NCBI RefSeq assembly: GCF_037975245.1
Contig: NC_092582.1
Location: 22,530,577 to 22,594,576, forward strand
Source: Apostichopus japonicus
Lineage: Eukaryota; Echinodermata; Holothuroidea; Aspidochirotida; Stichopodidae
Reading direction: 5' to 3'
Length of the DNA stretch: 64,000 nt
The position numbers and the translations under genes were made by a program. This document shows, piece after piece, positions 18,085 through 59,071 of the stretch. The stretch's first letter is position 1. The number at the start of each line of letters is the position of its first letter. The notes beneath the pieces were generated by a model. That model had not been told where the DNA came from, ran no database searches, and worked only from the letters and a program-made list of their open reading frames with translations.

Positions 18085-18194
18085 TTTAAGAATTGCAGCA
18101 GGATTTTGATTTTTCTGTGTGTTTAGTGTTTCTTTCCTAGGGTCCTTGATGGGGCCTTAATTTTAGTCCCGCCCCGATCCTCTTCAATACATCT

Positions 18195-18482
18195 ATGTAT
18201 AAAATTCTCCTTATTGTTTATAAATCACTTAAAGGACATGGTCCAATGTATATTTCTGACTTATTACATATTTATGTCCCCTCTCGTAATCTAAGATCCA
18301 GCTCTCAATTTTTATTATCTGAAATTAAGTCCAAACATTCTTGGGGGGGGGGGGGTAGGTCATTTATTGTTTCTGCCCCTCGCTTATGGAACCAACTCCC
18401 CTTAAAAATCAGACAAGCATCTACTCTCTCTTACTTTAAGAAGAGCATCAAATCCCATTTAATGACAAAAGCTTTTATATAA
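18195..18482 (+). pseudogene. LINE ORF2 C-terminal remnant 2 (CR1/L2-like)
   Basis: The 95-residue frame contains YKILLIVYKSLKGHGPMYIS, then PSRNLRSSSQFLL, then SAPRLWNQLPLKIRQASTLS and FKKSIKSHL. These are the standard blocks after the reverse-transcriptase domain of CR1/L2-like LINEs (YK-L-GLAP-YL, RLRS, APRLWN-LP-IR-A-S---FK--LK-HL). A poly-G run at about 18342 inserts a Gly stretch. Only the C-terminus is present, as in 5'-truncated insertions. Confidence 0.85.
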
Positions 18483-22088: not shown

Positions 22089-24554
22089 GTAAGGAAACCC
22101 AGTTTCCCAGAGATTTCCTTAACAATTCTTTGAGTTATCATGTAAATGGCACCAGTACGAATTTGCATGTGAAAAGGTTGCTATGAGATTCTTAAAAGGA
22201 TGACGTTAGCCACGAAATTAATTTAATATGTTTTGTAGACAATTTTAAAACCATGCATTCAATCCAGGTTGTACTACTATACCACATACAAGTTTTGAGA
22301 GATGACCCTTTAATCATCCGAGGATCATCAATCAAAGTGGCTGGACCTCTTAGTCTAACACACATACCATGGAATCAGTTTCTCAAAAGTCTGAATGGCT
22401 ATCGAAACATTAATAGCACTCAAATTTTACTTTTGTTTTTGGACTATGACATATCAAAGCAAAATTCTGCCTATAGTCTGCCTTTAACCTCTCTCACTGT
22501 CGAATAACTGTCGAGCACAAGAAGTGTTTTTTAAGCTCTGTATTGCATTTCATTCCCATGCTGTCACCAGAAAGTAGGTTACTTTTTTTTTTTCAAAACA
22601 ATCATTAGCCTCAGGCCTACAACACTTTTAAGGTTAATGTACCTATGCTTTGGCCTGTGATTTGCAATAGGAATTTGAATCAGAAAAGAAATTAAAATGG
22701 TGAGGCTATTTGCACCTGTTTTAGGGGCAATTGGACATAGTTCATCTGGTTGCTATGGAACATCGCCCTAGTTAAGTGAGTGTACGTGGAGGGAAGTGAA
22801 GCAAGGTTGTAGTTAGCTTCGAAGAAGTTGTAAGCTGCTTGCTTCAACGTACTGTCCGATAGCTTGAAAGTGGTAACGATCATTGTAGTCGAGGCCAAAC
22901 ATAAGGCTTATATTTCTTGCATACATTTGGACAAACAGTTTGCATCTTTTGCTTATAAGTGCATTGCGATTGCGATGTAAAAAATTGCAAGCATGATCTA
23001 TTCCAAAGTTTGGCTTTGTGGATTACTCTTGAATGACATGAGAGAACAAAGCATATTTTCACACTCACAGGAAACATTATTTTTTACCTGGTTAGGTGTG
23101 ACGGCAAGGGAATGCTAATAGGTTTCTACTATGTATCTTGGAATTGATGAAAACAAGTAAGAAAAGAACGATTAAAAAAGCATGTTCCTTAGTCACATTT
23201 CCTTCCAAATTTATTTAGGTTGCTATGACAATGGTCTGTGCAAATCCCATGAAGTTTAACCTTTTCCATTTAGCAAAGAGGTGCATTTGTAAACATCCAC
23301 AGTTTAATATTAACAATGACAGCCCTGATTCTTGTATGCAAATAAGGATCAGCCAGTAACGTATTGTATAGAAATGACAAAGCTTTAGCCCGATGTTTGC
23401 TTTGAAAAGTAAACATACTTTCCCAGAATTTGACGTTACTCTTGTGACACTCATGCAAGAACAAATACCATTTGTCTTTTGTTCATGCATGTTTGACGGA
23501 AAACAAAGCCACACTTGAAATACTTCCAGCAGCTTCAATTCCTCTCAGAAATTAAATTGCATCACTACAGATGATGACGTTACAAAGTTGAAGAAAGAAA
23601 CAGAGCTTTGTTAGTTTGCACAGAAATTACCCGAATGAGGCCATAACTGTTATCTGATAATGTTGAGTTGATATGACCAGCACAATCTTGTCATAAATGT
23701 CAAATTAGAATTCTGCTGGGAATTTTTAGAGGCTCTCTGAAGAACAAGCTATGCCAATGAGGATCAAGAGGATTTAAAACCCCAACTGGTCTTTGTTTCA
23801 GTGTATGGTGGAGAGATTATTTGTTCGTAATATTAGACAATTTTGACCTATAATGTGAAAAGGAGAGTGCCTCCCAGAGATCTCGTCTTGTCCATTGATA
23901 GTTCAGCTTACGTAGGTGAATACAAACATTAAGCCACACTTGATGACAAGAATTATACGAGAAGGGGCATATTCTCCATTATTACAACTGATAGTGTGCT
24001 AATTGCATGTCCTTCTAACAATGCGTTATAATGCTTGGGAATTTTGTTCATCTTCCTAAGATGAAGCAGAACCTTACACTGTTTTACTGATGGTAGAAAT
24101 GGTAAAAGGTTACAACAACAAAAATCATGGGTATGCCATCGTTATCTCCTAAGAGGAATGGAATTGTGGGTAAAACTTATAGATAAGTCTGAAAGTGATC
24201 TTTTTAGTTCCTCCTGGCAATGAATTAAATTCGGATGATTTAAAAGTTCTCATAAACATATCTCAAGTATGTCTTCCTTGTGCAGTATGGAATATAACTT
24301 GTGATGGCATTTTATTGATGTATTATGAACAACAGTTTCGAAGGTATCAACAATAATTTGGCAAAAAGAATATTTCAATGAATTTTCAAGTCTAATACCC
24401 ACCACATCTCCCCTCCCCCCTTCTCCCCAACCATCAACATCTTCCAAAATGTGTTATATAAGTGTGCTTTGAAAAACTATATATTTAACTAAAAGACTAC
24501 AAATTTACATTTGTCAATGATTCTTCAGTTTATTTGTTTTTCATCTCTTTACAG
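22089..24554 (+). other. GABBR1 intron J/K
   Basis: No exon or repeat family recognised. The antisense ORFs near 22.7-23.5 kb have no recognisable motif. Confidence 0.7.
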
Positions 24555-24683
24555 GTGTTGGGTATTATAACAGCACCAGTCACCCTTATCATCAAGGACC
24601 AGGCAAATGCCGTCTTTGGCTTCTCGTCCTTGACAATCATTTTCTGCTCAGCGATAACTTTAGCTCTTATTTTCGTTCCAAAA
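24555..24683 (+). CDS. GABBR1: GABBR1 exon K: transmembrane helices 6 and 7
   Basis: Encodes VLGIITAPVTLIIKDQANAV and FGFSSLTIIFCSAITLALIF, then VPK. These match vertebrate CLITAPVTMIL--Q and [23 protein letters not shown]. The acceptor is ctctttacag and the donor is gtaagt at 24684, phase 0. Confidence 0.95.
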
Positions 24684-25701
24684 GTAAGTCGAACCTTTCA
24701 GAAACACAAACTTCCTAAAGCATCCCTTTTTTGGGGGAATTCTCATTACAGTAAGTGGTAAAGATTATTTGCGATCATGTGCTTAAAATTTAGGATATGA
24801 GTTATTTTTTACTCTTGGTGATTCATAGAGAAATATTAAAAAGATCAGGATAACATTAATTTTGATTTTAATTTTTAAGAATGTGATCACTGAAATTTAA
24901 AATCGCCTGCATCAAAGTAAAACAAATTGTATGCAAATTAGGACAGTTTAATCCATAGCTATTCCAAACCTAGTATTTATCGGTGATGATTATCAATATG
25001 CTCTTGTTATTATTATTCAACCAATTTCCGGGAATATTCGAGCAAATGTGTCTTGTCGTTTGTTTCATGTGTGAATTTGTGATGATGTTTTGGGTGGGGG
25101 GGGGCAGGACAAAATTATGCAACAAATTTTAATCGGAATGTTTTCATAAGTGAGCGAAATTCGATTGAGATGCTCAACCACTGTACCGTCAAAACATTTC
25201 CGTGGCAAATAACAAGAGAGTTCTACCCATGATGCCCGTGACAGTATTAGCTACAGGAATTAAATGTCACGTGAAATGACGATAACTTACGGTTGCAGGT
25301 TTCACATAATCGGCGAGAAATACAGCAGACTTAATGTAACTAACTTTCCTGGAGACGGACAGTTATACCTTCAGGACTCCGCTCATTAACCTATTGAAGC
25401 AGCGAATGTGAGAGTAAAAATGCCAATAATGATCGATTTTTTGGATGAAGCAAAATGTCAATCTCGGACAAAGAAAACATTGAACTGGATATTTATGCAA
25501 CTTGGAACATTCTCCCCCAGGCAATCTCTGCAAAACTGCTCACATTCAGTCAAATCTAGTCGGGCTATTTAGTGACAGTGGATATCTCTTTCAGGGCTTA
25601 TAAACTGGCAATCATCTTAATCCGAAAACAGAGGCAATGTTTTAGTTACACTTGATATCGTATGTCCCTTAATTTTTCTCTCTCGCTCTTCATGTTTGCA
25701 G
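24684..25701 (+). other. GABBR1 intron K/L
   Basis: Nothing supported beyond ordinary AT-rich intron and a G-run near 25096. Confidence 0.7.
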
Positions 25702-31100: not shown

Positions 31101-33050
31101 ACACAACAAGGACTGGGAAAATTTTAACAAGACTTGAATAAGGCTGGGAAGACTTTTACAAGACTGACAAGATTTGTAGAAGACTTGTTCAAGACTCAAA
31201 GGAATATTAAGAGACTGTGACGCCGTGTTCAAGAATTTTGCAACACTTAGAAGACTAATGTTAGACTAGCAAGTCTTGTACCATATTGGAAAGACTTTCA
31301 CAAGAATTGTAGAAGACTTGTACAAAACTCAAATGAACATTATGAGACCGTGAAGCCTTGTACAAGATTTTTGCAACACTTAGAAGACTCGTGTTAGACT
31401 AACAAATCTTGTACCATATTGGAAAGACTTTCACAAGACTGACAAGAATTGTAGAAGACTTGAACAAGACTCAGAGGAATATTATGAGACCGTGAAGCCT
31501 TGTTCAAGATTTTTGCAACACTTAGAAGACTCGTGTTAGACTAACAAGACTCGTACAACATTGGAAAGACTTTTACAAGACTGACAAGAATTGTAGAAGA
31601 CTTGTTCAAGACTCAAAGGAATATTATGAGACCGTGAAGCCTTGTACAAGATTTTTGGAAGACTTGTGTTAGACTTTAAAATCTTGTACAAGGTTTGGGG
31701 AGAATTTTACAAGACTGGCAAGAATTGTAGAAGACTTGTTCAAGACTCAAAGGAATATTATGAGACTGTTAAGCCTTGTACAAGATTTTTGCAACACTTA
31801 GAAGACTAATATTAGACTAACAAGTCTTGAACAAGACTGACAAGAATTGTAGAAGACTTGTTCAAGACTCAAAGGAATATTATGAGACTGTTAAGTCTTG
31901 TACAAGATTTTTGCAACACTTAGAACACTAATATTAGACTAACAAGTCTTGAACAAGACTGACAAGAATTGTAGAAGACTTGTTCAAGACTCAAAGGAAT
32001 ATTATGAGACTGTTAAGCCTTGTACAAGATTTTTGCAACACTTAGAAGACTAATATTAGACCAACAAGTCTTGAACAAGACTGACAAGAATTGTAGAAGA
32101 CTTGTTCAAGACTCAAAGGAATATTATGAGACTGTTAAGCCTTGTACAAGATTTTTGCAACACTTAGAAGACTCGTGTTAGACCAACAAGTCTTGTACAA
32201 CATTGGAAAGACTTTCACAAGACAAGAATTGTAGAAGACTTGTTCAAGACTCAAAGGAATATTATGAGACCGTGAAGCCTTGTACAAGATTTTTGGAAGA
32301 CTTGTGTTAGACTTTAAAATCTTGTACAAGGTTTGGGAAGAATTTTACAAGACTGACAAGAATTGTAGAAGACTTGTTCAAGACTCAAAGGAATATTAAG
32401 AGACTGTGAAGCCTTGTACAAGGCTGACAAGATTTTTGCAACACTTAGAAGACTTGTGGTAGACTAACAAGTCTTGTATAAGATTGGAAAGACTTTTACA
32501 AGACTGACAAGAATTGAAGAAGCCTTGTACAAGATTTTTGCAACACTTAGAAGACTTGTGTCAGACTAACATCACTTGTACAAGACTGGAAAGACTTTTA
32601 CAAGACTGACAAGAGTTGTAGAAGACTTGTTTAAGACTCAAAGGAATATTAAGAGACTGTGAAGCCTTGTACAAGGCTGACAAGATTTTTGCAACACTTA
32701 GAAGACTTGTGCCAGACTAACAAGACTTGTACAAGACTGACAATACTTGTAGAAGATTCTGACGAGTTTTTCAAGACTTTTAAAAGACTGGAAAGAATTT
32801 TACAAAAACTGACCAGACGTTAACAAGATTGGGAAGGCTTTGCAAGAATGACGAGAATTAAACAAGACTAGGAAATCTTGTATGTGACTGACAAGAGGTA
32901 TGCAACACTTAGAAGACTTGTGTCAGACTAAGAATACTTGTTCAAGGCTGGGAAGACTTGTAGAAGACTTGAAAGACATTTAAAAAGATTTACAATACTT
33001 ATAAAAGAATGGAAAGAATTGTAAAGAATGACCAGACTTGTACAAGACTG
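31100..33050. repeat. Complex minisatellite, about 122-bp higher-order unit
   Basis: Built from short words such as caagactgacaagaattgta, agaagacttgttcaagactc and caacacttagaagact. The block agaattgtagaagacttg recurs at 31721, 31843, 31965 and 32087, an exact 122-bp period in the centre. The flanks are more divergent and of variable length. Confidence 0.92.
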
Positions 33051-33650
33051 AGAACACTTGTTTAAGTCTGGGAATACTTGTGTAAGAGTGACAATACTTG
33101 TTTAAGTCTGGGAATAATTGTATAAGACTGACAATACTTCTGTAAGACTGGTAATACTTGTGTAAGACTGACAATACATGTGTAAGACTGGGAATACTTG
33201 TGTAAGACTGACAATACTTGTGTAAGACTGGGAATACTTGTGTAAGACTGACAATACTTGTGTAAGAATGACAATACTTGTGTATTAATGACAATACTTG
33301 TGTAAGAATGACAATACATGTGTAAGACTGGGAATACTTGTGTAAGAATGACAATACTTGTGTAAGACTGACAATACATGTGTAAGACTGGGAATACTTG
33401 TGTAAGAATGACAATACTTGTGTAAGACTGACAATACTTGTGTAAGACTGACAATACTTGTGTAAGAATGACAATACTTGTGTATTAATGACAATACTTG
33501 TGTAAGAATGACAATACATGTGTAAGACTGGGAATACTTGTGTAAGACTGACAATACTTGTGTAAGACTGACAAGAATTGTAAAAAACGGAAAAGAGTTA
33601 CCACAAAACTGGAAAGATTTATACAAGACTGGAAGGACTTGTGTAAGACT
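33050..33650. repeat. Minisatellite, 20-bp unit
   Basis: About 28 copies of tacttgtgtaagactgacaa with aat/ggg and att variants, continuous with the 122-bp array and made of the same words. Because 20 is not a multiple of three, all three minus-strand frames stay open and give spurious ORFs of 113-179 codons. Confidence 0.95.
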
Positions 33651-36599
33651 GATAGGTACAAGATCTAAAAAGACACACTCAGCTTGTCGTCATCAATTTT
33701 TAACAATCCTCCAATTCTGTTTCCTACTTAATTTGTTTCAATGTACGGTTTTACAGTTTATTTAACATGTACCTAACATCAGTGTTTAGCACTACCTGAT
33801 ATAGCCCATTGGGGGAGAGAGGGGGGGAGGGGCGAGAGGGGTTTATTACTATTTTATGTGCATTGGGTGGGGGTGGGGTAGAGGACTAACCAATCTGGTA
33901 AGGATCTATATCAGACAGTTAACTATATATTTGTTCGATTTATGTTGAATAGTCTCCATGAAGTGGTATATGCATAAAACAGTATTCATTTATCGATCTT
34001 TTTTATCCAATGTTGCATCACTAATGTAATCATGTGACAATATTTCCTCTCTTGTTTTATTTCTCTCTCTCTCTATTTTGGTGAAAATGATTACTTACTT
34101 AGAAATCTGTTTATTGTTTCCTTTACCAAACTCTTTACGTAGTTATTTATTTGGTGCCGTTCTTCCATTAATGATAATGTACAGACTTAGTGCAATGACA
34201 TGAAGGGGGGGGGGGGAAACATGTTTTTGATGAAGAAATTTTAAAAACTTGTGTCCGACTGCAACTTTTTGCCTTTTTCTTGACTTCTTATCTTCTTAGT
34301 TATTTAAGATACAGTGCCTTGGCATTGCTCATGATATGTGTATCAGCATCCATGATGATAGGGGTGTTATCGCTTTGTGGAAGCTTTGAGGGTCGGTCCA
34401 TAAATAGGCGACTTTAGGCCGGGTCAATCATAGATTTCCATAAAAGGAACTGATAAACTAGAACTGCAGGATAGTAGCAGGATTGTAGTGTGCGTGGAGT
34501 GCTTGCAGTATTAGGAACAACTTTTCTGTTGTTCATGTTGTTATTTTTTGGGGGTGGACAACACACCAGGGAGTATAGTCATGTAGGTACCTACAAAGTG
34601 AGGGCGCTTGCGAGCGCCGTGACAGGCTCAGAATAAGTTGGCTACGCAGCTAGCCTCTGAAACTGCAAATGTACAGAGACTATATGAAACTTGAAGTTTC
34701 AACTTCAAGTCATGTAGGTATCGATCACTTGGCCATTAATGCTAATATTGGAGCGCGCAGGCGCACTGCAATAATGAGGTAAAAGAAGTCGAAATTTACA
34801 AATATGTAGTCGAAAAAAAATTGAGACATAACATTGTTATATATCAAAGGGGGGAGGGGGATGATGTCGTTGAAAAGACGGACTAGAATTCCACCCCACA
34901 AGAGCTGTAGCTTGGCTAGGATATATAATTTACTTTGATATTAGTTTGGGTGAAGAAAGAGATGGGGGGGGGGGGGCTGGGGGAAAAACATGGTGTAGGA
35001 AAAGTTCACGTACAACCGAATTATCCCAATTCAGTTTAAGCCTAACGTATTGTCAACTTACTGAGCCGAAAAGTCGACCAGGAAAGAACCTGGGCACGAA
35101 AACCAAACGACTGATCCGCTCTCAACCCCAGTCCCCTTACATCGGGACTGTGACTGTGTGATCATCGTCAGGTGTGCATCACCATTCCCCTCGAAAGGGA
35201 ACAAATACTACACATGATCTTAGTCAAAAGGGTAAGTAAGAAATAAGAGGGTAATCCATGCAGTTGGATATCCAGCCTTCATGGATAATAGGTTTAAATT
35301 CCACAGCCATTCATGAACTCCACATTGAAGAAAACAGAATTTGTACTTAATGCAACCCTCACCCACACCTCCGCACTGGCGGTGTAGCAGTACAAACTGT
35401 CGCAAATATCTTATATTCAGTCAATACTGTCCTAGTCCCACTCGGACAGTTTATACTGTATTTACCAGTACGTTTGGTCTCCCTGGACCTATTGTACAAG
35501 GCCAGTTTGTACAGACTGTCTCCCCAGACAGTATATGCTATGGTTACACGAAGGGGGACATTATTTGACGGTCATATATTTTGTTGTAAATTGTGTCCCC
35601 CCTGAACACAATGTCCGCCGTAGCAGGTACGTTGTCACAGCTGATAGAACTTTTCCCCACCCCCTTGTAGGGTAGCCTACGGTAAGTAAATGTATAACAC
35701 GTATATTTGGAGTACAACCTAAACTTCTGGGCGAATTAGCAATTAACCCCTACCCCTGCAATACAAATAATCCCCCTCCCCAATATTAACCCCTCCCCAA
35801 TTAAAATTAGCCCCTTCCCCAAAATTTATGATTGTCACCATATATTCTTTAAAATTCATCACGTCCAACCCCCAAAATCTCCCCTCCCTTAAAGAAGAAA
35901 GGAATAGGATTCAAGATCAGGTGCTTAAAGTCGGGTGGTTGGAACTTTCAGTCGGGGGATTTTTATCTTTTTTCGGGTTTTTTTTTCGGTTTTCCAATTT
36001 TGGTTCGTTTCGTTCATTTCTGCCATTAAATTACAAGGATGTACATTTGTTAATACACAGTTATAGCAATGAGGCAGCGGGTCCAGAAGTAAGATAACTA
36101 CTTTAAACTTATAACTAAGGGAAATGTATATAAACATACGAGGCGGAAGGAAGAACGAAAGAAATAATAACTGAAAATGTGTATCAGAAAGGCAGTGTAG
36201 GCCGTATACGTAGATTGTAGGTGTGTGTTGGATACAAGCCAAGTGTGCGTCGTTAACGATTACGTCATAATCAGAGCACGTCAGCACAATATTGAATAAT
36301 TCACAGCCTGTAATTCTCAATTAAGTCTGCTTAAAATAGCGTTGATCTGCAAATAAGATACAGATAGTTGCTACACAAGAAACAAAACTCAATACTGGTT
36401 GATAACGTTTGTAAGATTATTATGGTTGATGTGTCATTAATCCTCTTAAAAAGTTTAGCAATTTGAGGTTGCTATCTTGGACAAAATTATATTAAATTCC
36501 GTTTTTTCTAATTATTATAAAACCATACGCTGACAAGATTGTCAAATTTGGATAAAATATTCAGTTCGCCAAATTTTAATTTTAGATGTCCGAGAACGT

Positions 36600-37099: not shown

Positions 37100-40000
37100 A
37101 ACGATGGCTCAATGGCTTGCAAAATGATCAAATTTGGACGAAAAATCACGGTTCTCCAATTTCATTTCAAGATTTGATATTCATATTAGATATGTTATTT
37201 TAATGAGTTGGGACCTATTTTAAAAGCTATTATTGTCTGATGTATAATCCAAAGGTCAACCTCCGTTCTCCGCATCTATTTGGGAAGATTCTAAAAAGTT
37301 GCTAATTTTGGTCGAAATTGATCAAAATGATAAGGCTATAGCCTTGCAAAATGATCAAATTTGGACGAAAAATCAAGGTTCTCCAATTTCAGTCTCGATG
37401 TTCATAATGGATAAATAGGGATCAGAAACACATTCCTCTCATCTTAAAAGTGATTTTCCAATCGATTTTTCGCCTTAATACAGATATATGAAATTATAAC
37501 ATCAAGATTTGATATTCATATTAGATATGTTATTTTAATGAGTTGGGACCTATTTTATAAGCAATTTATGTCTGATGTATAATCCAAAGGTCACCCTCCG
37601 TTCTCCGCATCTGTTTAGGAAGATTCTAAAAAGTCGCTAATTTTGGTCGAAATTGATCAAAATGATAAGGCTATAGCCTTGCAAAATGATCAAATTTGGA
37701 CGAAAAATCAAGGTTCTCCAATTTCAGTCTCGAGGTTCATAATGGATTAATAGGGATCAGAAACACATTCCTCTCATCTTAAAAGTGATTTTCCAATCGA
37801 TTTTTCGCCTCAATATAGATATATGAAATCATAACATCAAGATTTGATATTCATATTAGACAGTGGCGTCACCAGACTTTTCAGTCTTGGGGGTGGGGCA
37901 CATGGGGGGCACCAGCATTTGATGGGGGACACTTAGGTGGATACGGATCGCTGTCCTGGGTGAGGGGTCTAAGGGGAGGGGGTGTACTACTCCCCTTTGG
38001 AAAATTTTGGCATACGGAGGATGGGCTAGATGCAAAATGGTGCCACATTTGATGCTAAATTCGATCTGAAGATATCTCCGGAAATTGCAATATTTGAGGT
38101 AATGATTTTAACAACGGGCAGAATTTTGCAGAGGATATGAACCACATGCTGTCGATATTATGCCTAACCCTATCAATAGAACCTACATTTGTTGAATTAA
38201 TGTGTGCATGAACCCCGACTCCTTTCTTGTCCTTCTCGTTTTCTCCCATTATCTATTAAGATGTAACAGGTTCCAGCATCGTTGTTGGCTCCTATCAGGG
38301 ATCTCACCATGCAATCCAAAGTTGGATCACACATCGAGTATGGCTCAGTATGCAGGTGTGAATATTTGCCATTTGTTCCTATAAGCATCTGACCTCAAAT
38401 GACCTCTGCACCCCCTACACAACAGGGTTAATATATGAGTCCACAAATATAGGCAAGTATGGTGCCTGCGGACCCTCACATTCTCACATTTCGTCAGCTC
38501 CTAACATGTCAACCTCAGACCAAGGCAACATACTGCAGTACCCTCCCTTCTCACAGCAGGTCCAGATTTTCGGCATTTCACAGGCATCCAATTCACGAGA
38601 GGTAAAAGACACACACAGACAGCAGACAAGCACTCTCACCCATATGACAAATGCACACAAAGGCCCACACAAAGGCCCTCAAGGTTAGGGTTCAGAGCAA
38701 CGATATTACTCATCGGTCCAGAAAAAATAAAGCGCGTTCTTTCATATTCTGAGGTCAGAATCATGAGAAAGGTCCAGAAATAGTGTTCTCTGGCGAGTAG
38801 GGGTGGCCTACTTTTCAGGAATTTGATTGGACTGCACCTAGTGATTTTCTGAATAGTCGTCCTACTTCCTAGGAAATAAAAACACGGCTGCAGCACAGCC
38901 AGAACAGGGAAATTCATTGTTTTGAACGATGAGTCATGTAGCTCGCGAAGCGGACGTGTATAGCCGCTGGTATGGCGTGAGCACTGACACATTCAATGTA
39001 AATATCGACACCTGTTGTGATGGCGCGGGTTACGACTTCGATAGCCGACGGTCAAGGATAAACTTTTTCATATTTTCGCAGCTCATTTGAAGAAAATACG
39101 AATTACTGTGCTTCTTTGTCCTTATGAAAAACCAACTCATATGATGGGAGTTGAATATAACAAACTATATATATTTTTCTTACCAACCAAAATCTCAGAT
39201 GGGGGGCACTCGGTTTTCCAGGGGGGCACGTGCCCCCCCCTTCCCCCCCCCCCTTGGCGACGCCACTGATATTAGATATGTTATTTTAATGAGTTGGGAC
39301 CTATTTTAAAAGCTATTATTGTCTGATGTATAATCCAAAGGTCACCCTCCGTTCTCCGCATCTATTTGGGAAGATTCTAAAAAGTCGCTAATTTTGGTCG
39401 AAATTGATCAAAATGATAAGGCCTTGCAAAATGATCAAATTTGGACGAAAAATCAAGGTTCTCTAATTTCAGTCTCGATGTTCATAATGGATAAATAGGG
39501 ATCAGAAACACATTCCTCTCATCTTAAAAGTGATTTTCGAATCGATTTTTTGCCTCAATATAGATATATGAAATTATAACATCAAGATTTGATATTCATA
39601 TTAGATATGTTATTTTAATGAGTTGGGACCTATTTTAAAAGCTATTATTGTCTGATGTATAATCCAAAGGTCACCCTCCGTTTACAGCATTTATTTGGGA
39701 AGATTCTAAAAAGTCGCGAATTTTGGTCGAAATTGATCAAAATGATAAGGCTATAGCCTTGCAAAATGATCAAATTTGGACGAAAAATCAAGGTTCTCTA
39801 ATTTCAGTCTCGAGGTTCATAATGGATAAATAGGGATCAGAAACACATTCCTCTCATCTTAAAAGTGATTTTCGAATCGAATCTTGGCCTCAATATAGAT
39901 ATATGAAATTATAACATCAAGATTTGATATTCATATTAGATATGTTATTTTAATGAGTTGGGACCTATTTCAAAAGCTATTATTGTCTGATATATAATCC

Positions 40001-42587
40001 AAAGGTCACATCAAGGTCGATTTTTTGCCTCAATATAGATATATGAAATTATAACATCAAGATTTGATATTCATATTAGATATGTTATTTTAATGAGTTG
40101 GGACCTATTTTAAAAGCTATTATTGTCTGATATATAATCCAAAGGGCAACCTCCATTCTCCGCATCTGTTTGGGAAGATTCTAAAAAGTCGCTAATTTTG
40201 GTCGAAATTGATCAAAATGATATGGCTATAGCCTTGCAAAATGATCAAATTTGGACGAAAAAACAAGGTTCTCTAATTTCAGTCTCGATGTTCATAACGG
40301 ATGAATAGGGATCAGAAACACATTCCTCTCATCTTAAAACTGATTTTCCAATCGATTTTTTTGCCTCAATATAGATATATGAAATTATAACATCAAGATT
40401 TGATATTCATATTAGATATGTTATTTTAATGTGTTGGGACCTATTTTAAAAGCTATTATTGTCTGATGTATAATCCAAAGGTCACCCTCAGTTCTCCGCA
40501 TCTGTTTGGGAAGATTCTAAAAAGTCGTGAATTTTGTTCGAAATTGATGAAAATGATAAGGCTATAGCCTTGCAAAATGATCAAATTTGGACGAAAAATC
40601 AAGGTTCTCCAATTTCAGTCTCGAGGTTCATAACGGATGAATAGGGATCAGAAACACATTCCTCTCATCTTAAAAGTGATTTTCGAACCGAATCTTGGTT
40701 TTCATATAGATATATGAAATTATAACATCAAGACTTGATATTCATATTAGATATGTTATTTTAATGAGTTGGGACCTATTTTAAAAGCTATTATTGTCTG
40801 ATGTATAATCCAAAGGTCACCCTCCGTTCTCCGCATCTATTTGGGAAGATTCTAAAAAGTCGCGAATTTTGGTCGAAATTGATCAAAATGATAAGGCTAT
40901 AGCCTTGCAAAATGATCAAATTTGGACGAAAAAACAAGGTTCTCCAATTTCAGTCTCGAGGTTCATAATGGATGAATAGGGATCAGAAACACATTCCTCT
41001 CATCTTAAAAGTGATTTTCCAATCGATTTTTCGCCTTAATAAAGATATATGAAATTATAACATCAAGATTTGATATTCATATTAGATATGTTATTTTAAT
41101 GAGTTGGGACCTATTTTATAAGCTATTATTGTCTGATGTATAATCCAAAGGGCACCCACCGTTTACAGCATCTATTTGGGAAGATTCTAAAAAGTCGCGA
41201 ATTTTGGTCGAAATTGATCAAAATGATCAAATTTGGACGAAAAATCAAGGTTCTCCAATTTCAGTCTCGAGGTTCATAATGGATAAATAGGGATCAGAAA
41301 CACATTCCTCTCATCTTAAAAGTGATTTTCCAATCGATTTTTCGCCTGAATATAGATATATGAAATTATAACATCAAGATTTGATATTCATATTAGATAT
41401 GTTATTTTAATGAGTTGGGACCTATTTTAAAAGCTATTATTGTCTGATGTATAATCCAAAGGTCACCCTCCGTTCTCCGCATCTATTTGGGAAGATTCTA
41501 AAAAGTTGCTAATTTTGGTCGAAATTGATCAAAATGATAAGGTATAGCCTTGCAAAATGATCAAATTTGGACGAAAACGCAAGGTTCTCCAATTTCAGTC
41601 TCGATGTTCATAATGGATAAATAGGGATCAGAAACACATTCCTCTCATCTTTAAAGTGATTTTCGAATCGATTTTTCGCCTCAATATAGATATATGACAT
41701 TATAACATCAAGATTTGATATTCATATTAGATATGTTATTTTAATGAGTTGGGACCTATTTTATAAGCTATTATTGTCTGATGTATAATCCAAAGGGCAC
41801 CCTCCGTTCTCCGCATCTATTTGGGAAGATTCTAAAAAGTCGCGAATTTTGGTCGAAATTGATCAAAATGATAAGGCTATAGCGTTGCAAAATAATCAAA
41901 TTTGGACGAAAAAACAAGGTTCTCCAATTTCAGTCTTGATGTTCATAATGGATAAATAGGGATCAGAAACACATTCCTCTCATCTTAAAAGTGATTTTCG
42001 AACCGAATCTTGGTTTTCAATATAGATATATGAAATTATAACATCAAGATTTGATATTCATATTAGATATGTTATTTTAATGAGTTGGGACCTATTTTAA
42101 AAGCTATTATTGTCTGATATATAATCCAAAGGGCACCCTCCGTTTACAGCATCTATTTGGGAAGATTCTAAAAAGTCGCGAATTTTGGTCGAAATTGATC
42201 AAAATGATAAGGCTATAGTCTTGCAAAATGATCAAATTTGGACGAAAAATCAAGGTTCTCCAATTTCAGTCTCGATGTTCATAATGGATAAATAGTGATC
42301 GGAAACACATTCCTCTCATCTTAAAAGTGATTTTCGAACCGATTTTTTGCCTCAATATAGATATATGAAATTATAACATCAAGATTTGATATTCATATTA
42401 GATATGTTATTTTAATGAGTTGGGACCTATTTTAAAAGCTATTATTGTCTGATATATAATCCAAAGGGCACCCTCCGTTCTCCGCATCTATTTGGGAAGA
42501 TTCTAAAAAGTCGCTAATTTTGGTCGAAATTGATCAAAATGATAAGGCAAAATGATCAAATTTGGACGAAAAATCAAGGTTCTCCAA
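37100..42587. repeat. 335-bp satellite array, about 14 monomers
   Basis: The anchor gatttgatattcatattag (one substitution in the 40732 copy) starts at 37171, 37506, 37841, 39586, 39921, 40061, 40397, 40732, 41067, 41378, 41712, 42048 and 42383. Spacing is 334-336 bp except where deletions occur (311, and 140 between 39921 and 40061) or where the inserted element at 37861-39268 lies. Identity between monomers is high, indicating recent expansion or homogenisation. Each monomer carries a dyad centred on aaggctatagcctt. Confidence 0.96.
37861..39268. mobile_element. hAT-type non-autonomous element, 1408 bp, inserted in satellite
   Basis: The termini are CAGTGGCGTC at the left and GACGCCACTG at the right. 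A perfect 8-bp duplication, atattaga, flanks it at 37853-37860 and 39269-39276, and the single-copy site is visible in neighbouring monomers. The subterminal regions are rich in ggggggcac/gtgcccccc. No transposase-like ORF was recognised, so it is probably mobilised in trans. Confidence 0.93.
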
Positions 42588-44733
42588 CTTAAAAAGTCGG
42601 GAGTTTTCAAAATTTCACACTCACATTTATCTGATATTAGATGTGAAAGTTGGCAGAATAAATAAGCCAATATAAAAACAATAATATGACTCATGTAGCA
42701 TTTCACAAATTTTAATTGTATACATCACACTCAACTAGTGTTAAATTTAATCCCTTTAATTTAACAATTTGTTGTTTATCTACTGTATTGGCAGGTGACG
42801 TCACTACCTGGCCATGACGTCATCTGTTAATATTCAACGTGTAGTACCATCGTGTTATGTCGATAAAGCGAGCAACGATGTAATATTCATAAAGTGGTTT
42901 CAAGTTTCAACATCCTGTAGCAAGAAAACGCTTCCTAATTGAAACGAATCTAAGATAAGACGGGAATTGTTTGTTTAGTTGGTTCGTAGCATATATTCTT
43001 GAACAAGGAAATAAACAACAAGTGTATTTTTTAATTGATTAATATTTCATCTGCATCATCAAAACCGCCGGAGTTCGAGAGTGGGCGAAAGGAAGGCAAC
43101 GGAGGGACACGGCCGGGTTTCCTGATAAGCCTCTTCACTCCTCCCCCCACCCCCAGCCCCCCTCCCCCACCCCACCCAACACACAATTCCTCTTATACAT
43201 TACGTTGACCGGTGCAGAGGGTGAAGAAATAATACAATAGTAAATCAGTAAATTTTTGAATGTTTGAGAAACTAAGAAACATTTATTTCGTCGTTAATGC
43301 ATTAATGCATTAGTGTATGAAATATAAGTTAAAGAAAAAGAATGAACACATGTGCAGCTTAAATTGTAGATTGTTACAACTTTCCAAAAATGACCATTAC
43401 ACCCTCATAGAATATCAAGGTTTGTATTGTAATATAAATATATATATTAAAAAAGGGTATGTATGGAGCCTATGCATGATGGGCACACTACTGTCTTATG
43501 ATCACAATATGATATGTAATATGCAAATGATACAATATATGGGAAAACAGTATATAATAAACATATAAATGTATGAAAACAGAATGGCAAATATATGACT
43601 CTTTATATGCAAATTGCATAATTTTTACATAGCTTTATCTATAAAATATGTAGCATAATTTTTGTTTTAATGATACTAAATAAATATATAGCGTTATGAA
43701 AATGCTATGATAAACATGATTATAGTACATTATTAAAGGGTTTATGTAATAAAGTGTATTAATAAAGGGTAAACATATTATAGTATATTATTAAAGGGTA
43801 TACGTATTAAAGTGTAAATAGATACGATGTCATATATTCCCAAACGTTTTCCTTGGCGCACCTTATTTTTCTAAGACCTAACATCGCCCAATTGATTGCA
43901 CATTGACTGAAAGTTAGTGAATGACAGCACAGATGCAAATATTAAAGCTTGGGAAACAATCATGGCGTGACAGGGAGTAAGTTTAACTGTCAAATTCCAT
44001 CGAACATATTGGTTACGGAATGAAACAAATTTTTGGCCTCTAGCCGGCTCGCTGTCTAGCTCAAACGTAATTAAGTGAGCCATTGTTTAAGCTGGTCTCG
44101 CCAACTGAAATGACATTATTGACATTACGAGTGGCCGTAAAATACAGCAACTGAAAATGTAGACGCAGCATTTCTGAATAGCGTGAGTCACTGAGCGAAC
44201 TTCAAATCGGGGGGTAGCCTGTCCTAAAGCAGTTGTTTGTTTTCATAACCATCCGCTACCCCTCCCCCCCCCACACACATAAATATATAATTTAAAAAAA
44301 ATTAACTGATATGAATATCTCTTGCTAATAAGTTATGGTTAATTTTTAATTTTTTTTATAGAATACACTTGGCTTAAAATTTTACAAGGTGCTAAGGCTA
44401 TATGCGATATTGCACATTTGTCCTAAGAGTAAACTTAATTGACCAACTGATTTGCAGGTATAAATAATTTGCTCACTTGCTCACTCTTCTTTTTAAGCAC
44501 ACAGAGTTGAATAGATGAAAGACACGTCACCAACATACTTTTTTGTTTAGATTTTTCCCCCTTAGATCTCGCTTCTCTACAAGAATCCCCCCGACAAATT
44601 TAAATTAATTTAATTTAATTCAAATTTCAATTTCAAAAACATCAAAAATCATCAGGAAAACTCACCCACCCCCAAATAATATATAATAGTTAATATAAAT
44701 AAATAAGAAAATTAAAGAAAATAATAATATTTC
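42588..44733. other. Intergenic stretch, 3' flank of the minus-strand gene
   Basis: No exon was recognised. It may include the 3' UTR of the gene ending at 44734; an AATAAA on the minus strand near 43283 is a weak candidate end. Confidence 0.45.
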
Positions 44734-44931
44734 TTAACGACCGGTTTTGGTGTCGATAAGTCTCCCGATGAGCTCCAAGAGGTTTACCTTGGCTCTTTCA
44801 AGATAGTACTCAAACTCCTCAATAATGTACAGACATTGCATATACAAACACTCTCCGGCGCATATTTGATTGTTAACACTTCTGGCTATCCGAACAGAGT
44901 TTCCGGGTGAATTTCCGGCTGGATATCCTTT
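44734..44931 (-). CDS. Helical secreted protein exon 5: C-terminal helix D and stop
   Basis: 65 codons and TAA: KGYPAGNSPGNSVRIARSVN, NQICAGECLYMQCLYIIEEF, EYYLERAKVNLLELIGRL and IDTKTGR. Three Cys (178, 182, 187) cluster at the start of the last helix. The acceptor is tctctttcag. The aromatic-L-x-R-x3-N-L pattern resembles the receptor-contacting last helix of CNTF-type cytokines. Confidence 0.82.
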   Translation of the reverse strand, partial: KGYPAGNSPGNSVRIARSVNNQICAGECLYMQCLYIIEEFEYYLERAKVNLLELIGRLIDTKTGR

Positions 44932-45593
44932 CTGAAAGAGAATGATAGAATATTTAACTCAATAATCTATACCTAAATGTATATATATTCCCCTTTTTCT
45001 TAAGACATTAGTTACACCTTACGCATTGTTTTACTGTGTTCGAGTAAAACTCCCGTGTAATATTATCTGTTCACAATTATCGGGGTAGTATACATCCGCC
45101 TGAAAAGAATAGTCCTGTACATGAACTGGTAAAGTGACTTTAATTTTGCCAAATATTCGGTTACAATCACTCCTTTTGATGCTTGGATGTTGTAGAGGAT
45201 GAAACTACTAATGGGTCTAAAGATCTTAAGGATTGAAGGTTATTTAAAGCGTTTTATCAATTGCAGGGGTGAGAAACAGGCAGATTCCGCAACGAAGAAC
45301 TGGCAGATGGGTTTGGTAGTACCATATGCTAAATTTCTATCTCTTCTAACTCAGAAACTAAACGTCCATTGTCACCGTGGTAACATTTGAATGCGCTGAG
45401 ATAGCCTACACTCTATCAGCTATCATATGTTGGTGGGATAAGACATGCCTGGTTGAACACTTTTAGTATAGCGGCTTTGGAAAGTGACTTATTTAGTGTG
45501 TTAGTCAATGGAGCAGTTCAACAAGTGGAACGACACCGTTTCATGCCTCCATTGACTAGTAATATATGGTCATAAAGCAAAGAAATCCCTTAC
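44932..45593 (-). other. Intron 4 of the helical-protein gene
   Basis: No repeat family or alternative exon was recognised in it. Confidence 0.75.
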
Positions 45594-45791
45594 CTGAAGG
45601 ATAAGAAGCTCGAATCGGTCCAGAATTTCTCGAATCTCGAAATCTATAGTGGTCGCATTGTGATATAGACCAAAGCCTTCAGCGTCAGCCTCATCTAACA
45701 GTATCGCGCCTATTTCCAGGTAAGCATGGAGAAACGTTGTCAGAATATCCGAGTGTAGAAAATACAGCGATGTCAAATGGTTGTGAAGATC
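45594..45791 (-). CDS. Helical secreted protein exon 4: helices B and C
   Basis: 66 codons: DLHNHLTSLYFLHSDILTTF, LHAYLEIGAILLDEADAEGF, GLYHNATTIDFEIREILDRF and ELLILQ. The amphipathic pattern is strong, with a sequon at NAT. The acceptor is gatccttcag-like (ccttcag) and the donor is gtaagg, phase 0. Confidence 0.85.
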
Positions 45792-46409
45792 CTGAAGGAA
45801 TATGAAGGGAAATATTATTTGGGGAGCCAAACGAGCCAAAAACAAAAAAATATGCTTATTAAAGACGTTGAGGTATTTCATGATATACTTATACCACCCC
45901 CCCCCTTCACCTCCACCTCCATACAGAAGAAAGCAGTAGAACTTCCGAGTGACTCTCTCATCGGAGCCAGTAGGGGGTTGTAATTGGGAAATCGGTAAAA
46001 TAAGGCCCTCCCCTATGGCCCTCCCAAAATGAGCACAATTGTCCGAACACCTTCCAGCAAAGCATTTATCAACTTTCTATTTTCGGGTAGCGTCTGCCGC
46101 ACAGCTTAATAAAGGGGGAAGAGGAGGGGTGGGGAGGGGGAGAGAAGAGGTGTACACGGTGGTTCCAATGAACGTTAGTCCGACATTGGATTCGCTGGCC
46201 GTATGATGCAGCACCAGGGAGCATTGAAAAATTATCATAGTTGTACAGGTTTGTACGCAAGTTCGAATAGGGGAGGGGTGTTTGGTGGGGGTGGGGTGGG
46301 GTGGGTTGAGGTGAGGTGAGGTGAGGGAGGGGGTAACATTGTTTCATGCTCCTCTTCTCCCACTTCAAACATCTATGTATATTTCCCTTCTAACATTAAT
46401 GATACTTAC
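45792..46409 (-). other. Intron 3 of the helical-protein gene
   Basis: Contains a G/C-rich purine tract at about 46105-46150 and ggtgaggtga runs near 46315; nothing coding. Confidence 0.75.
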
Positions 46410-46523
46410 AGCAGAATTATCGTTGTACCAATCCAGTCGCGAGAGGTTCGTGGAGAGCATTTCCATTCCTTCGATAGTAATATTTGGACTGGTTCTGTCT
46501 TCGTTATTAAAGCGATGTTGTAT
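46410..46523 (-). CDS. Helical secreted protein exon 3
   Basis: A 114-bp, 38-codon exon encoding IQHRFNNEDRTSPNITIEGM and then EMLSTNLSRLDWYNDNSA. NIT and NLS are N-glycosylation sequons. The acceptor is ctgttttag and the donor is gtaagt, phase 0 at both ends. Confidence 0.82.
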
Positions 46524-46662
46524 CTAAAACAGAAAATACTCTTTATTATAAACGACTGAATTAGGGAGCTTAGGATACACTTTAAGATAATGTTTGTTCA
46601 TCTTCTTGCCGTGAAGAGAGGCTTTTTTTTTACTCCAGATTAAAGCAAAAGCAAACAATGAA

Positions 46663-46700
<38 letters not shown>

Positions 46701-46994
46701 TCCTAGAATATTGACAGTAAAATTTACATATTCTTCAAGAGTTTTGAGTTCCATTCTGAAGTGGGATACTCGATATATATATATATATATATATACATAC
46801 ATATATATATAAGTACATACCCCGACTTATTTAGGTAAGAACTGAACCTATATGTAATGAGCAGAAGCGAATGAAGGATTCTTTTAATCAGGAATTGGCG
46901 CTGGGCCGTTGAAGTCGACTCCTGTGTATGGGATTCATTTAAACAGTTTGTGAAAGTTTCGTGACTTATAAAATTAACCGTTTAACATACTCAC
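46524..46994 (-). other. Intron 2 of the helical-protein gene, with two (AT)n tracts
   Basis: (AT)n tracts lie at 46664-46692 and 46773-46810. The intervening 80 bp shows no other structure. Confidence 0.85.
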
Positions 46995-47116
46995 AAAATG
47001 AGATCTAAAGTCATCGTTGTATTCTTTCAGCGAGAGGATAAAACGCTTGGCGCTTTCTAGATGGTGCAACTCGTCACAGGTTACATATCCAACTGCCAAC
47101 ATGTACACCAAAACAA
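46995..47116 (-). CDS. Helical secreted protein exon 2: signal core and helix A
   Basis: Completes a Val codon, then encodes VLVYMLAVGYVTCDELHHLE and continues SAKRFILSLKEYNDDFRSHF. The hydrophobic run completes the signal peptide; cleavage after G19 or C23 is plausible. The acceptor is ctcttccatag and the donor is gtgagt, phase 0. Confidence 0.8.
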
Positions 47117-48203
47117 CTATGGAAGAGCATAAAACCATCAGTTAGACACATGAAGAATAAAAAAATATTCTGTTTTTCAATCAATGAATTATGAGATTAT
47201 TCAATTCATTCATTAATTATGGGATTAAAATCATATAGTATATAACAAAACTGTCTTGGATAAAAACAACAACAAAATATGTACCTTTCCTTCATTTTTT
47301 TTGTCATAAAGTTTAGTACCGTACCATAAAAGATACTACTTTTGTTGGCTGCAAAATTTTAAAACTTGATCTACATATTGCTTATAAACCAGTGCTTAAA
47401 CGCATATATTCTCATTAAAAATGCTCTATATAGGAGTGTTAGCTCAGTGTTTACGCCGGTGCCTTCCAATCATAGGGTCCCCAGTTCGAGTCACTCCAAG
47501 ATTAATGTATGTCGTCCAGTTACAGAGTTGTTGACAATTGACAATTCATAATCATGGACGTTAAATATGAACCTAAGAAACTGACTTCGGTCAGCTTGCG
47601 GCTTTGATAAGCCAATGAGGCTTCTTCGCGAGTTCCTGATTGCAGGGGGATCTAAATACAATACATACAAATATAACGTCAAGTTAAGCATGACACATGG
47701 CTTTAATGGTCTTCCGTACCTATATACACTGATTGACGGGTACGCTTCAAACCACCGCAAAACTAAACAAAGGGGAGAGTTCTTCAAACTATTTTGCGCT
47801 GCATGATACAGTTACATGTATACGCAATGCAGTAGAAGTTAGTCAACCACAAATCATAACACCTGAAGATTATGCGATATTTACTACAAATCAATAAGAC
47901 TGACATATCTGAAGGAGGCATACAATAATGTGCGCTATTAAAATGTATTTTCATTTTCATTCTTAGTAGGTACGATTGGACAAAGTAATGACACTAATGA
48001 TACATAGTTAAAGAGCTATAGAACAGCCTATCATATACAAAGTCTAGCCTATATACGGGCCTTCAAGTGCATACTGCAGTTAAGAATGCCTGACACAAGA
48101 TATACTTGACAACCACATGAAATTTGCGTCACTTGAAGTGAGGAGCACACGAACACACACACACAAAAGAGTAATAAAAATATAAAGGTATATATGTTCT
48201 TAC
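47117..48203 (-). other. Intron 1 of the helical-protein gene
   Basis: Hosts a plus-strand copy of SINE family S2, listed separately. Otherwise no coding signal. Confidence 0.8.
47432..47675 (+). mobile_element. tRNA-derived SINE (family S2), copy 2
   Basis: The head gtgttagctcagtgtttacg is A-box-like and ccagttcgagtcactcc is B-box-like. The shared body carries gacaattgacaattcataat, and the tail is acaatacatacaa. It is homologous over its whole length to the minus-strand copy at 27055-27297. Confidence 0.87.
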
Positions 48204-48231
48204 CAAGGTATCCACTGAAATTCTGTTCCAT
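48204..48231 (-). CDS. Helical secreted protein exon 1: start and n-region
   Basis: Encodes MEQNFSGYL plus one base. ATG at 48231-48229 is the first Met in this frame; the donor is gtaaga, phase 1. A very short first coding exon before a phase-1 intron is also the IL-6 arrangement. Confidence 0.72.
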
Positions 48232-48275
48232 CTTCAAGTTGTGATTATTTCGCCTGGCCGTGCACGATTGTTATA

Positions 48276-48282
48276 TTATATA
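48276..48282 (-). promoter_or_regulatory. Possible TATA box for the helical-protein gene
   Basis: TATATAA lies on the minus strand 45 bp before the ATG. If used, the 5' UTR would be only about 15-20 nt. The region is AT-rich, so chance is a serious alternative. Confidence 0.3.
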
Positions 48283-54880: not shown

Positions 54881-54882
54881 CC

Positions 54883-55240
<358 letters not shown>

Positions 55241-55638
55241 TCTCCCCCCCCCCCCCCTCCCCTGTTACGTACCTTCCATGCACTTAAGTTTTCATTGATC
55301 AACAATTTCCGCGTGGCATCCCCAAATATTCCCACTGATAGCCTGTATAGTTTCTAAAGGGCCAAAAGTATTCTGATTTGTAAACCATCTGTTATATGCC
55401 CTGCCAGAAATTATACGATCATGTACTATTTAATCACAATACTAAACTCTCTGAACTTACCGTAATTTTCTGGACTTTTTTTTCGAGCTAAGACATTCCG
55501 TCGATGGGTGGGGGACTCACTCGTCGACTGGCAATTACACGCCTACCTCGTTATTCTCTGACAACTCATAGAAAAGGGGTGACTTGATGAAACCGCTGTT
55601 CATCCACGAATATCACAGGGACTATGATGCTTAGCAAT

Positions 55639-57975: not shown

Positions 57976-58664
57976 AACATTTCAATCGCGTGCATTGTTG
58001 CCTCTTCCCTACTCCTCACCGCCGATCCCGACCCATACCCCCCACACACCCATACCCCCCCCCCACACCCATACCCCTCCCCCCACACCCATACCCCTCC
58101 CCACACGAAAGAACCTTCAGACTGTTTGAAAAAGACAGTAATAACAAATAATATAAATATAAATGAAAGCTATTTTTGAATATGACAATACATGAGTGGG
58201 TTGCCACTCCTTTTTTATTAGGACAATCGTTTGCAGTCCCATGACATACACACATAGATTGATCAGAACGTACCGTTCCCTTCCTCCATCATTGCTAATA
58301 TATAACGTACTATCACCAATGCCAAACAACTTTATAAACTTAATACTCAAATACTGATATGACTGTGAACCAATCTTCCTTCCCGTGCCTTTCTTTATAA
58401 GTAGATACTTATATATAGTTGTTATATAACCATATATTTTAGATAATTATATTCTCTACCCTTATTGCTGTTTTTTTTAATGCGAGCAGGCATTTTGTAC
58501 CTGAAAATGTCCCAACCCCCCCCTTTTTTCCCCCAATCCCCACAAACTTTTTGACTTATCTGTACGTGTTTTTTTGATGATGCGAGAAGGAATTTCACAT
58601 CGCCGAGCTGAAATCTTGACAACTCGGAATAACTTTAATTTGTATATTTATCAAACTCATAAGG

Positions 58665-58770
58665 CTGCATATAAAGCGGGAGGCCCGGGTTCGAATCCCG
58701 GTGGAGGATGGAATTTGTTTTCTTCACTGTGCTGGATTTTCATACTCACTACAAATCTTTGTCTTTCAAT
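58665..58770 (+). mobile_element. SINE S1 fragment (tRNA-like part and body)
   Basis: Starts ctgcatataaagcgggaggc, continues through cccgggttcgaatcccgg (B box) and the ttcactgtgctggattttca body. The leader and A box are missing at this copy. Confidence 0.8.
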
Positions 58771-58814
58771 ATCCAGCTTTAGGGTTCACAGATGGTTTCG
58801 AATTGGTTAAGAGT

Positions 58815-59071
58815 CATTATTGATCTCTAGAGTTTTAAGGCAAAATGTGTCACCAAAACAGAACTAGCATTGTTCGATACAGACGGCAGAAAGCCTACAG
58901 GAATGACGACCTTCCTTACTGGCTTCGAACCTCTGGAGATACAATCTGTCTCCACAGCCTAGTTGGTTAGGGTGTCCGCGTACAAAGCGGGAGGCCCGGG
59001 TTCGAATCCCGGTGGAGGGTGGAAATTTGTTCACTGTTCTGGATATCCAACTCATTGCCGTCTAAGTATAT

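Follow-up and report, generated by a model that had tools for sequence, protein, structure and literature searches.

In the sea cucumber Apostichopus japonicus, a stretch of 64,000 nucleotides (nt) of contig NC_092582.1 (assembly GCF_037975245.1, positions 22,530,577 to 22,594,576; hereafter the window) contains five minus-strand exons, between window positions 48231 and 44734, that join in frame into a gene for a 219-residue product. Exon structure and structure prediction support a protein that is secreted and has four long helices (A to D, as predicted), parted by introns in the manner of class I helical cytokine genes. A long-chain class I cytokine-like ligand is favoured here over any single rival, although our confidence in it is evenly balanced; the fuller proposal, that the class I helical cytokine of this echinoderm retains an ancestral layout of five exons with intron phases 1-0-0-0, is held slightly more tentatively. 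Class I helical cytokines govern blood, immunity and growth in vertebrates. The gene product may belong to a type of signalling protein seldom met with outside vertebrates, its fold and function being putative.

The exon chain, the signal-peptide-like start and the phases and positions of the introns can be read directly from the DNA. All four introns are of the GT..AG type, with phases 1, 0, 0 and 0 at the exon ends, and the exons measure 28, 122, 114, 198 and 198 nt (the last including the stop codon; Table 1). None of the five contains a stop or a frameshift, and an in-frame minus-strand stop (48271-48273) precedes the ATG by 14 codons. Joining the exons thus bore out the gene structure given in a preliminary description of this DNA. 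The N-terminus is hydrophobic, and the simple (-3,-1) rule, applied in place of a trained predictor, permits cleavage after residue 19 or 23; with its 219 residues, the product appears to be a small secreted protein of the size and kind expected of a class I cytokine. Cysteines occur at residues 23, 178, 182 and 187. There are four N-X-S/T sequons, at residues 4, 64, 76 and 133, of which three remain, as the first lies in the signal peptide; these are the three N-glycosylation sites that had been counted before. Exons 1 and 2, with the signal peptide and helix A, are putative and drawn from the genomic sequence alone.

The remainder of the gene is matched by BSL78_08230, a hypothetical protein of A. 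japonicus whose 150 residues are identical to residues 70-219. It holds exon 3 from an internal methionine onwards, exons 4 and 5, both junctions between these exons, and the stop codon. Because it begins at Met70, it has neither exons 1 and 2, with the signal peptide and helix A, nor the first half of exon 3, and no function is assigned to it. The public annotation thus appears to carry the gene only as a truncated "hypothetical protein". Roughly two thirds (68%) of a protein put forward before as possibly undescribed is therefore already in databases. The BSL78 tags presumably stem from the sea cucumber genome paper. Annotation of the sea cucumber genome combined homology, ab initio and RNA sequencing evidence (PMC5638244; this and all other papers are cited from partial text, to which the statements drawn from them are limited).

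BSL78_08230 is better support for coding than a chance test, in which we sought the longest coding chain that DNA of equal length would yield with splice sites at least as strong as the weakest used here, scored by approximate, rounded splice matrices. A chain of at least 657 nt arose in one of 200 dinucleotide shuffles and in none of 77 overlapping controls taken from elsewhere in the window, where the longest measured 627 nt. The longest chain of the real region is a different one, of 834 nt in six exons, and because it is longer, the five-exon model is not singled out. The test supports coding exons in the region. This bears on the possibility that exons 1 and 2 have been joined wrongly, or that the gene has decayed, and that expression is confined to exons 3 to 5 (as in BSL78_08230) and gives a protein that is not secreted. 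The start of the public model at Met70, within exon 3, would fit such a case, as would the longer six-exon chain and the exon 2 donor, which is the weakest. However, exon 2 provides, in the correct frame, both a hydrophobic stretch suited to a signal and a stretch predicted with confidence to be helical, and all five exons are open throughout, so that we regard mis-joining or decay as unlikely.

The cytokine reading draws added evidence, unused in the preliminary description, from the way in which the introns relate to the helices. Besides the first intron, which splits the signal peptide in phase 1, phase 0 introns follow residue 50 (end of exon 2, the exon of helix A), residue 88 (start of helix B) and residue 154 (last of helix C), parting helix A, the A-B loop, helices B and C, and the C-D loop with helix D. 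The fold of BSL78_08230, from which two of the helix ends are taken, was predicted independently of the exons. A random pair of cuts would fall within two residues of both helix-end sites in this protein with a probability of 0.0024 (0.0006 if both are phase 0), and within five residues with a probability of 0.011 (0.0025 if both are phase 0); these values assume random intron placement and take the model helix ends at face value, both of which favour the hypothesis. The phase series 1-0-0-0 by itself has a probability of about 0.03, given general phase frequencies. This series is that of the growth hormone, erythropoietin, G-CSF and IL-6 genes; the genes for growth hormone, IL-6, IL-11, G-CSF and erythropoietin have five coding exons and a first intron of phase 1. 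Prolactin likewise has five exons (PMC12347873). In human IL-4, exon 1 encodes the signal and helix A, exon 2 the A-B loop, exon 3 helices B and C, and exon 4 the C-D loop and helix D, and the introns of IL-4, IL-13 and their relatives are of phase 0 (PMC4905449). The sea cucumber gene follows the IL-4 exon order, with the same partition by phase 0 introns, and reaches five exons through an additional intron, of phase 1, within the signal peptide.

Compared with the long-chain class I cytokines with five coding exons, such as prolactin (PMC12347873), the product shares a length of about 200 residues, a signal peptide split by the first intron, four long predicted helices and the exon-to-helix order. 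It differs in having no detectable sequence similarity and other cysteines, and here the host is an invertebrate and the fold and receptor are putative. The short-chain IL-4 and IL-13 have the same exon-to-helix order and phase 0 introns, but four coding exons and, in salmonids, 142-153 residues, as opposed to five exons, 219 residues and long helices here (PMC4905449). A class II helical cytokine, of the interferon or IL-10 kind, might also be considered, as the type I interferon genes of fish likewise consist of five exons parted by four introns, with weak sequence similarity to their mammalian counterparts (PMC5127012). Yet the four introns of teleost type I interferon genes, which encode class II cytokines, are all of phase 0 (PMC4929537), and the phase 1 of the first intron here disfavours this class; moreover, a single exon for both helix B and helix C is what is described for IL-4, a class I cytokine (PMC4905449). 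We consider a class II cytokine very improbable.

The helicity of the four segments is a prediction, obtained from single-sequence structure models, without alignments, of two separate pieces (exon 2 and BSL78_08230). Exon 2 folded by itself is helical over residues 12-49, with a mean predicted local distance difference test score (pLDDT) of 91.7. The model of BSL78_08230 has a mean pLDDT of 64.4 and is the only one with more than one helix, helix A being absent from it; its helices B, C and D span 34, 30 and 39 residues, with a B-C turn of four and a C-D link of 24 residues. A further, low-confidence helix is predicted at residues 71-85, which makes the length of the A-B link uncertain, and the start of helix B is likewise less certain.

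A number of results weigh against a cytokine. The 219-residue protein matched no Pfam family (maximum E-value of 10, although the filters let little through above 0.1), profiles of IL-6, CNTF and LIF included, and neither did P0001 or the exon 4 frame. Among the sequences of the Protein Data Bank (PDB) no relative was found, the one match (3bee_A; E 0.23) being a chance one. Three word-based searches of protein databases (163, 55 and 9 candidates, the third with residues 23-125 only) returned no homologue beyond BSL78_08230; since these searches need shared words of five residues, distant orthologues may be missed. The BSL78_08230 model aligns with generic bundles, some of them described as antiparallel, and the up-up-down-down packing proposed for helices A to D is hypothetical. 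Amphipathicity is weak: among 5000 shuffles, the observed helical moment was reached by 673 for helix A, 540 for B, 2085 for C and 165 for D (464, 378, 718 and 159, respectively, for shorter cores), so that only helix D stands out nominally, before any correction for multiple testing. The purple sea urchin is reported to have no apparent cytokine receptor signalling system (Liongue et al. 2012, PMC3296744, from the partial text).

These results affect the earlier claims unequally. That the protein has no nameable domain agrees with the empty Pfam result, whereas its labelling as an IL-6/CNTF-class cytokine finds no support there. CNTF itself is not known to have a signal peptide and has fewer exons. 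As Pfam, the PDB and the other databases yielded no further relative, the candidate is not assignable to IL-6, CNTF, LIF or any other named family from its sequence. Of the four long amphipathic helices, the helicity is supported by prediction and the amphipathicity is weak. The proposed structure comparison was made with a fragment without helix A (pLDDT 64.4), which matched generic, partly antiparallel bundles, the four helices being spread over two pieces. What stands of the cytokine interpretation as a whole, without the IL-6/CNTF class, is that the protein is secreted and is predicted to have four long helices, in a still conjectural fold.

The strongest rival is another secreted helical protein, for example of the coelomic fluid, lipid-binding or gamete type, which forms an up-down-up-down bundle and whose exon layout is coincidental. 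Helical bundles are common, and both the absence of a cytokine family from the Pfam listing and the alignment of the partial model with generic, in part antiparallel, bundles agree with it. A simple up-down bundle, however, needs neither the 24-residue C-D link nor a long A-B link (the length of the latter being uncertain), and intron sites and phases fit the class I layout (PMC4905449). We rate this explanation as a serious though lesser possibility. Under the favoured reading of a class I cytokine-like ligand, the secreted protein would bind class I cytokine receptor chains via its helix faces and draw two of them together, upon which JAK-STAT signalling would ensue.

Among invertebrates, the Drosophila Unpaired proteins are secreted helical ligands of Domeless that act through JAK-STAT. 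The sea cucumber protein would be of the same ligand type, a likeness of description. Amphioxus has a growth hormone-like molecule, a type I helical cytokine of 208 residues, which is similar in size, comes from an invertebrate deuterostome and has low identity to its vertebrate relatives (PMC9010856). The likeness is again one of description. The amphioxus molecule has complementary DNA and receptor interaction data (PMC9010856); the sea cucumber gene is known from sequence only. Amphioxus also has several divergent genes related to the type I helical cytokine, and according to the same review no helical cytokine of this class was detected in acorn worms and sea squirts (PMC9010856). A 2014 review is less specific, crediting echinoderms with cytokine-like molecules that resemble interleukins, among others (PMC4172062). 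No report of an echinoderm class I helical cytokine gene was among the literature matches listed (preprints and most subscription papers fall outside the search), and BSL78_08230 was not mentioned in the literature searched. If the reading is true, the ligands of the cytokine receptor-JAK-STAT system would have arisen before echinoderms and chordates separated, so that the deuterostome origin of this ligand family would be older than the chordates. The receptor of the sea cucumber ligand, and what the ligand does in coelomocytes or regeneration, would become directly testable in a farmed animal, and intron layout would have revealed such a ligand where sequence searches fail. Confirmation would place a known kind of ligand in an unexpected phylum.

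AU-rich elements are usual in cytokine mRNAs, and an AU-rich 3' flank would suit a short-lived, inducible message. Downstream of the stop codon, nonamers (TTATTTAWW) number two within 200 nt, three within 300 nt and three within 500 nt, values reached by 20, 0 and 3 of 1000 local shuffles, respectively. ATTTA pentamers are not in excess over the same distances (256, 74 and 226 of 1000 shuffles), and the nonamer count of the whole window is ordinary (17, compared to a shuffle mean of 12.8; reached in 19 of 100 shuffles). If the ATTAAA at 44619-44614 is its end, the message holds just two nonamers; on the minus strand no AATAAA occurs down to position 43400. As the motif was picked after the sequence had been seen, the nonamers carry little weight. 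ATTTA motifs are also listed for salmonid genes (PMC4905449).

Table 1. Exons of the candidate gene and possible flanking signals (positions in the window)
Feature	Position	Strand	Remarks
Exon 1 (coding)	48204..48231	-	Residues 1-9 plus one base of codon 10; signal peptide begins; phase 1 end; absent from public gene model
Exon 2	46995..47116	-	Remainder of signal peptide, helix A; phase 0 end; absent from public gene model
Exon 3	46410..46523	-	A-B region, sequons 64 and 76; phase 0 end; from Met70 on, with the exon 4 junction, also in BSL78_08230
Exon 4	45594..45791	-	Helices B (87-120) and C (125-154), short turn between; sequon 133; phase 0 end
Exon 5	44734..44931	-	C-D loop, Cys 178/182/187, helix D (179-217), stop
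Overlapping pair of AU-rich-element nonamers (TTATTTAWW)	44694..44706	-	28-40 nt 3' of stop; weak
Third AU-rich nonamer	44459-44467	-	Motif match
ATTAAA, possible poly(A) signal	44614..44619	-	Motif only
TATATA, possible TATA box	48277..48282	-	46-51 nt 5' of ATG; AT-rich DNA, weak

Some candidates from the searches were set aside. P0002, returned in the second protein search, is a reading of exon 4 that runs on into intron DNA, and none of 77 pattern matches in viral contigs is a relative. A tblastn search of the window, the exons themselves excepted, gave no convincing paralogue; the best pair, 12071-12169 and 12223-12312 (E 0.24 together, 0.93 for the first alone), with three in-frame stops by eye in its second member, was taken as chance.

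Elsewhere in the window, a tandem satellite of 335 base pairs (bp) lies about 2 kb past the 3' end of the gene (37167-42587), in three blocks of 2.1, 2.2 and 7.8 copies with 92-96% matches. Dense, short, degenerate repeats around the near-palindrome ACAAGACTTGT occupy 31127-33652, with nested periods that include 11, 20, 40, 60, 122 and 142 bp. On the plus strand, an exon-like frame (24489-24758) weakly matches the transmembrane domains of class C G protein-coupled receptors (7tm_3; E 0.0076, below the curated cut-off), and a frame at 2-331 recalls the GABA-B receptor ectodomain by eye, with no Pfam match; a neighbouring gene may encode such a class C receptor. A lone match resembling a cysteine transfer RNA (tRNA-Cys) is found at 58948-59020 (+), and because its translated wording recurs in the frame 58505-58807, a tRNA-derived short interspersed element is suggested rather than a tRNA gene. 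The frame at 18150-18479 (+) resembles by eye the C-terminal end of the reverse transcriptase of a long interspersed element, with no Pfam match, and a long CTAT microsatellite of about 90 copies spans 54882-55243.
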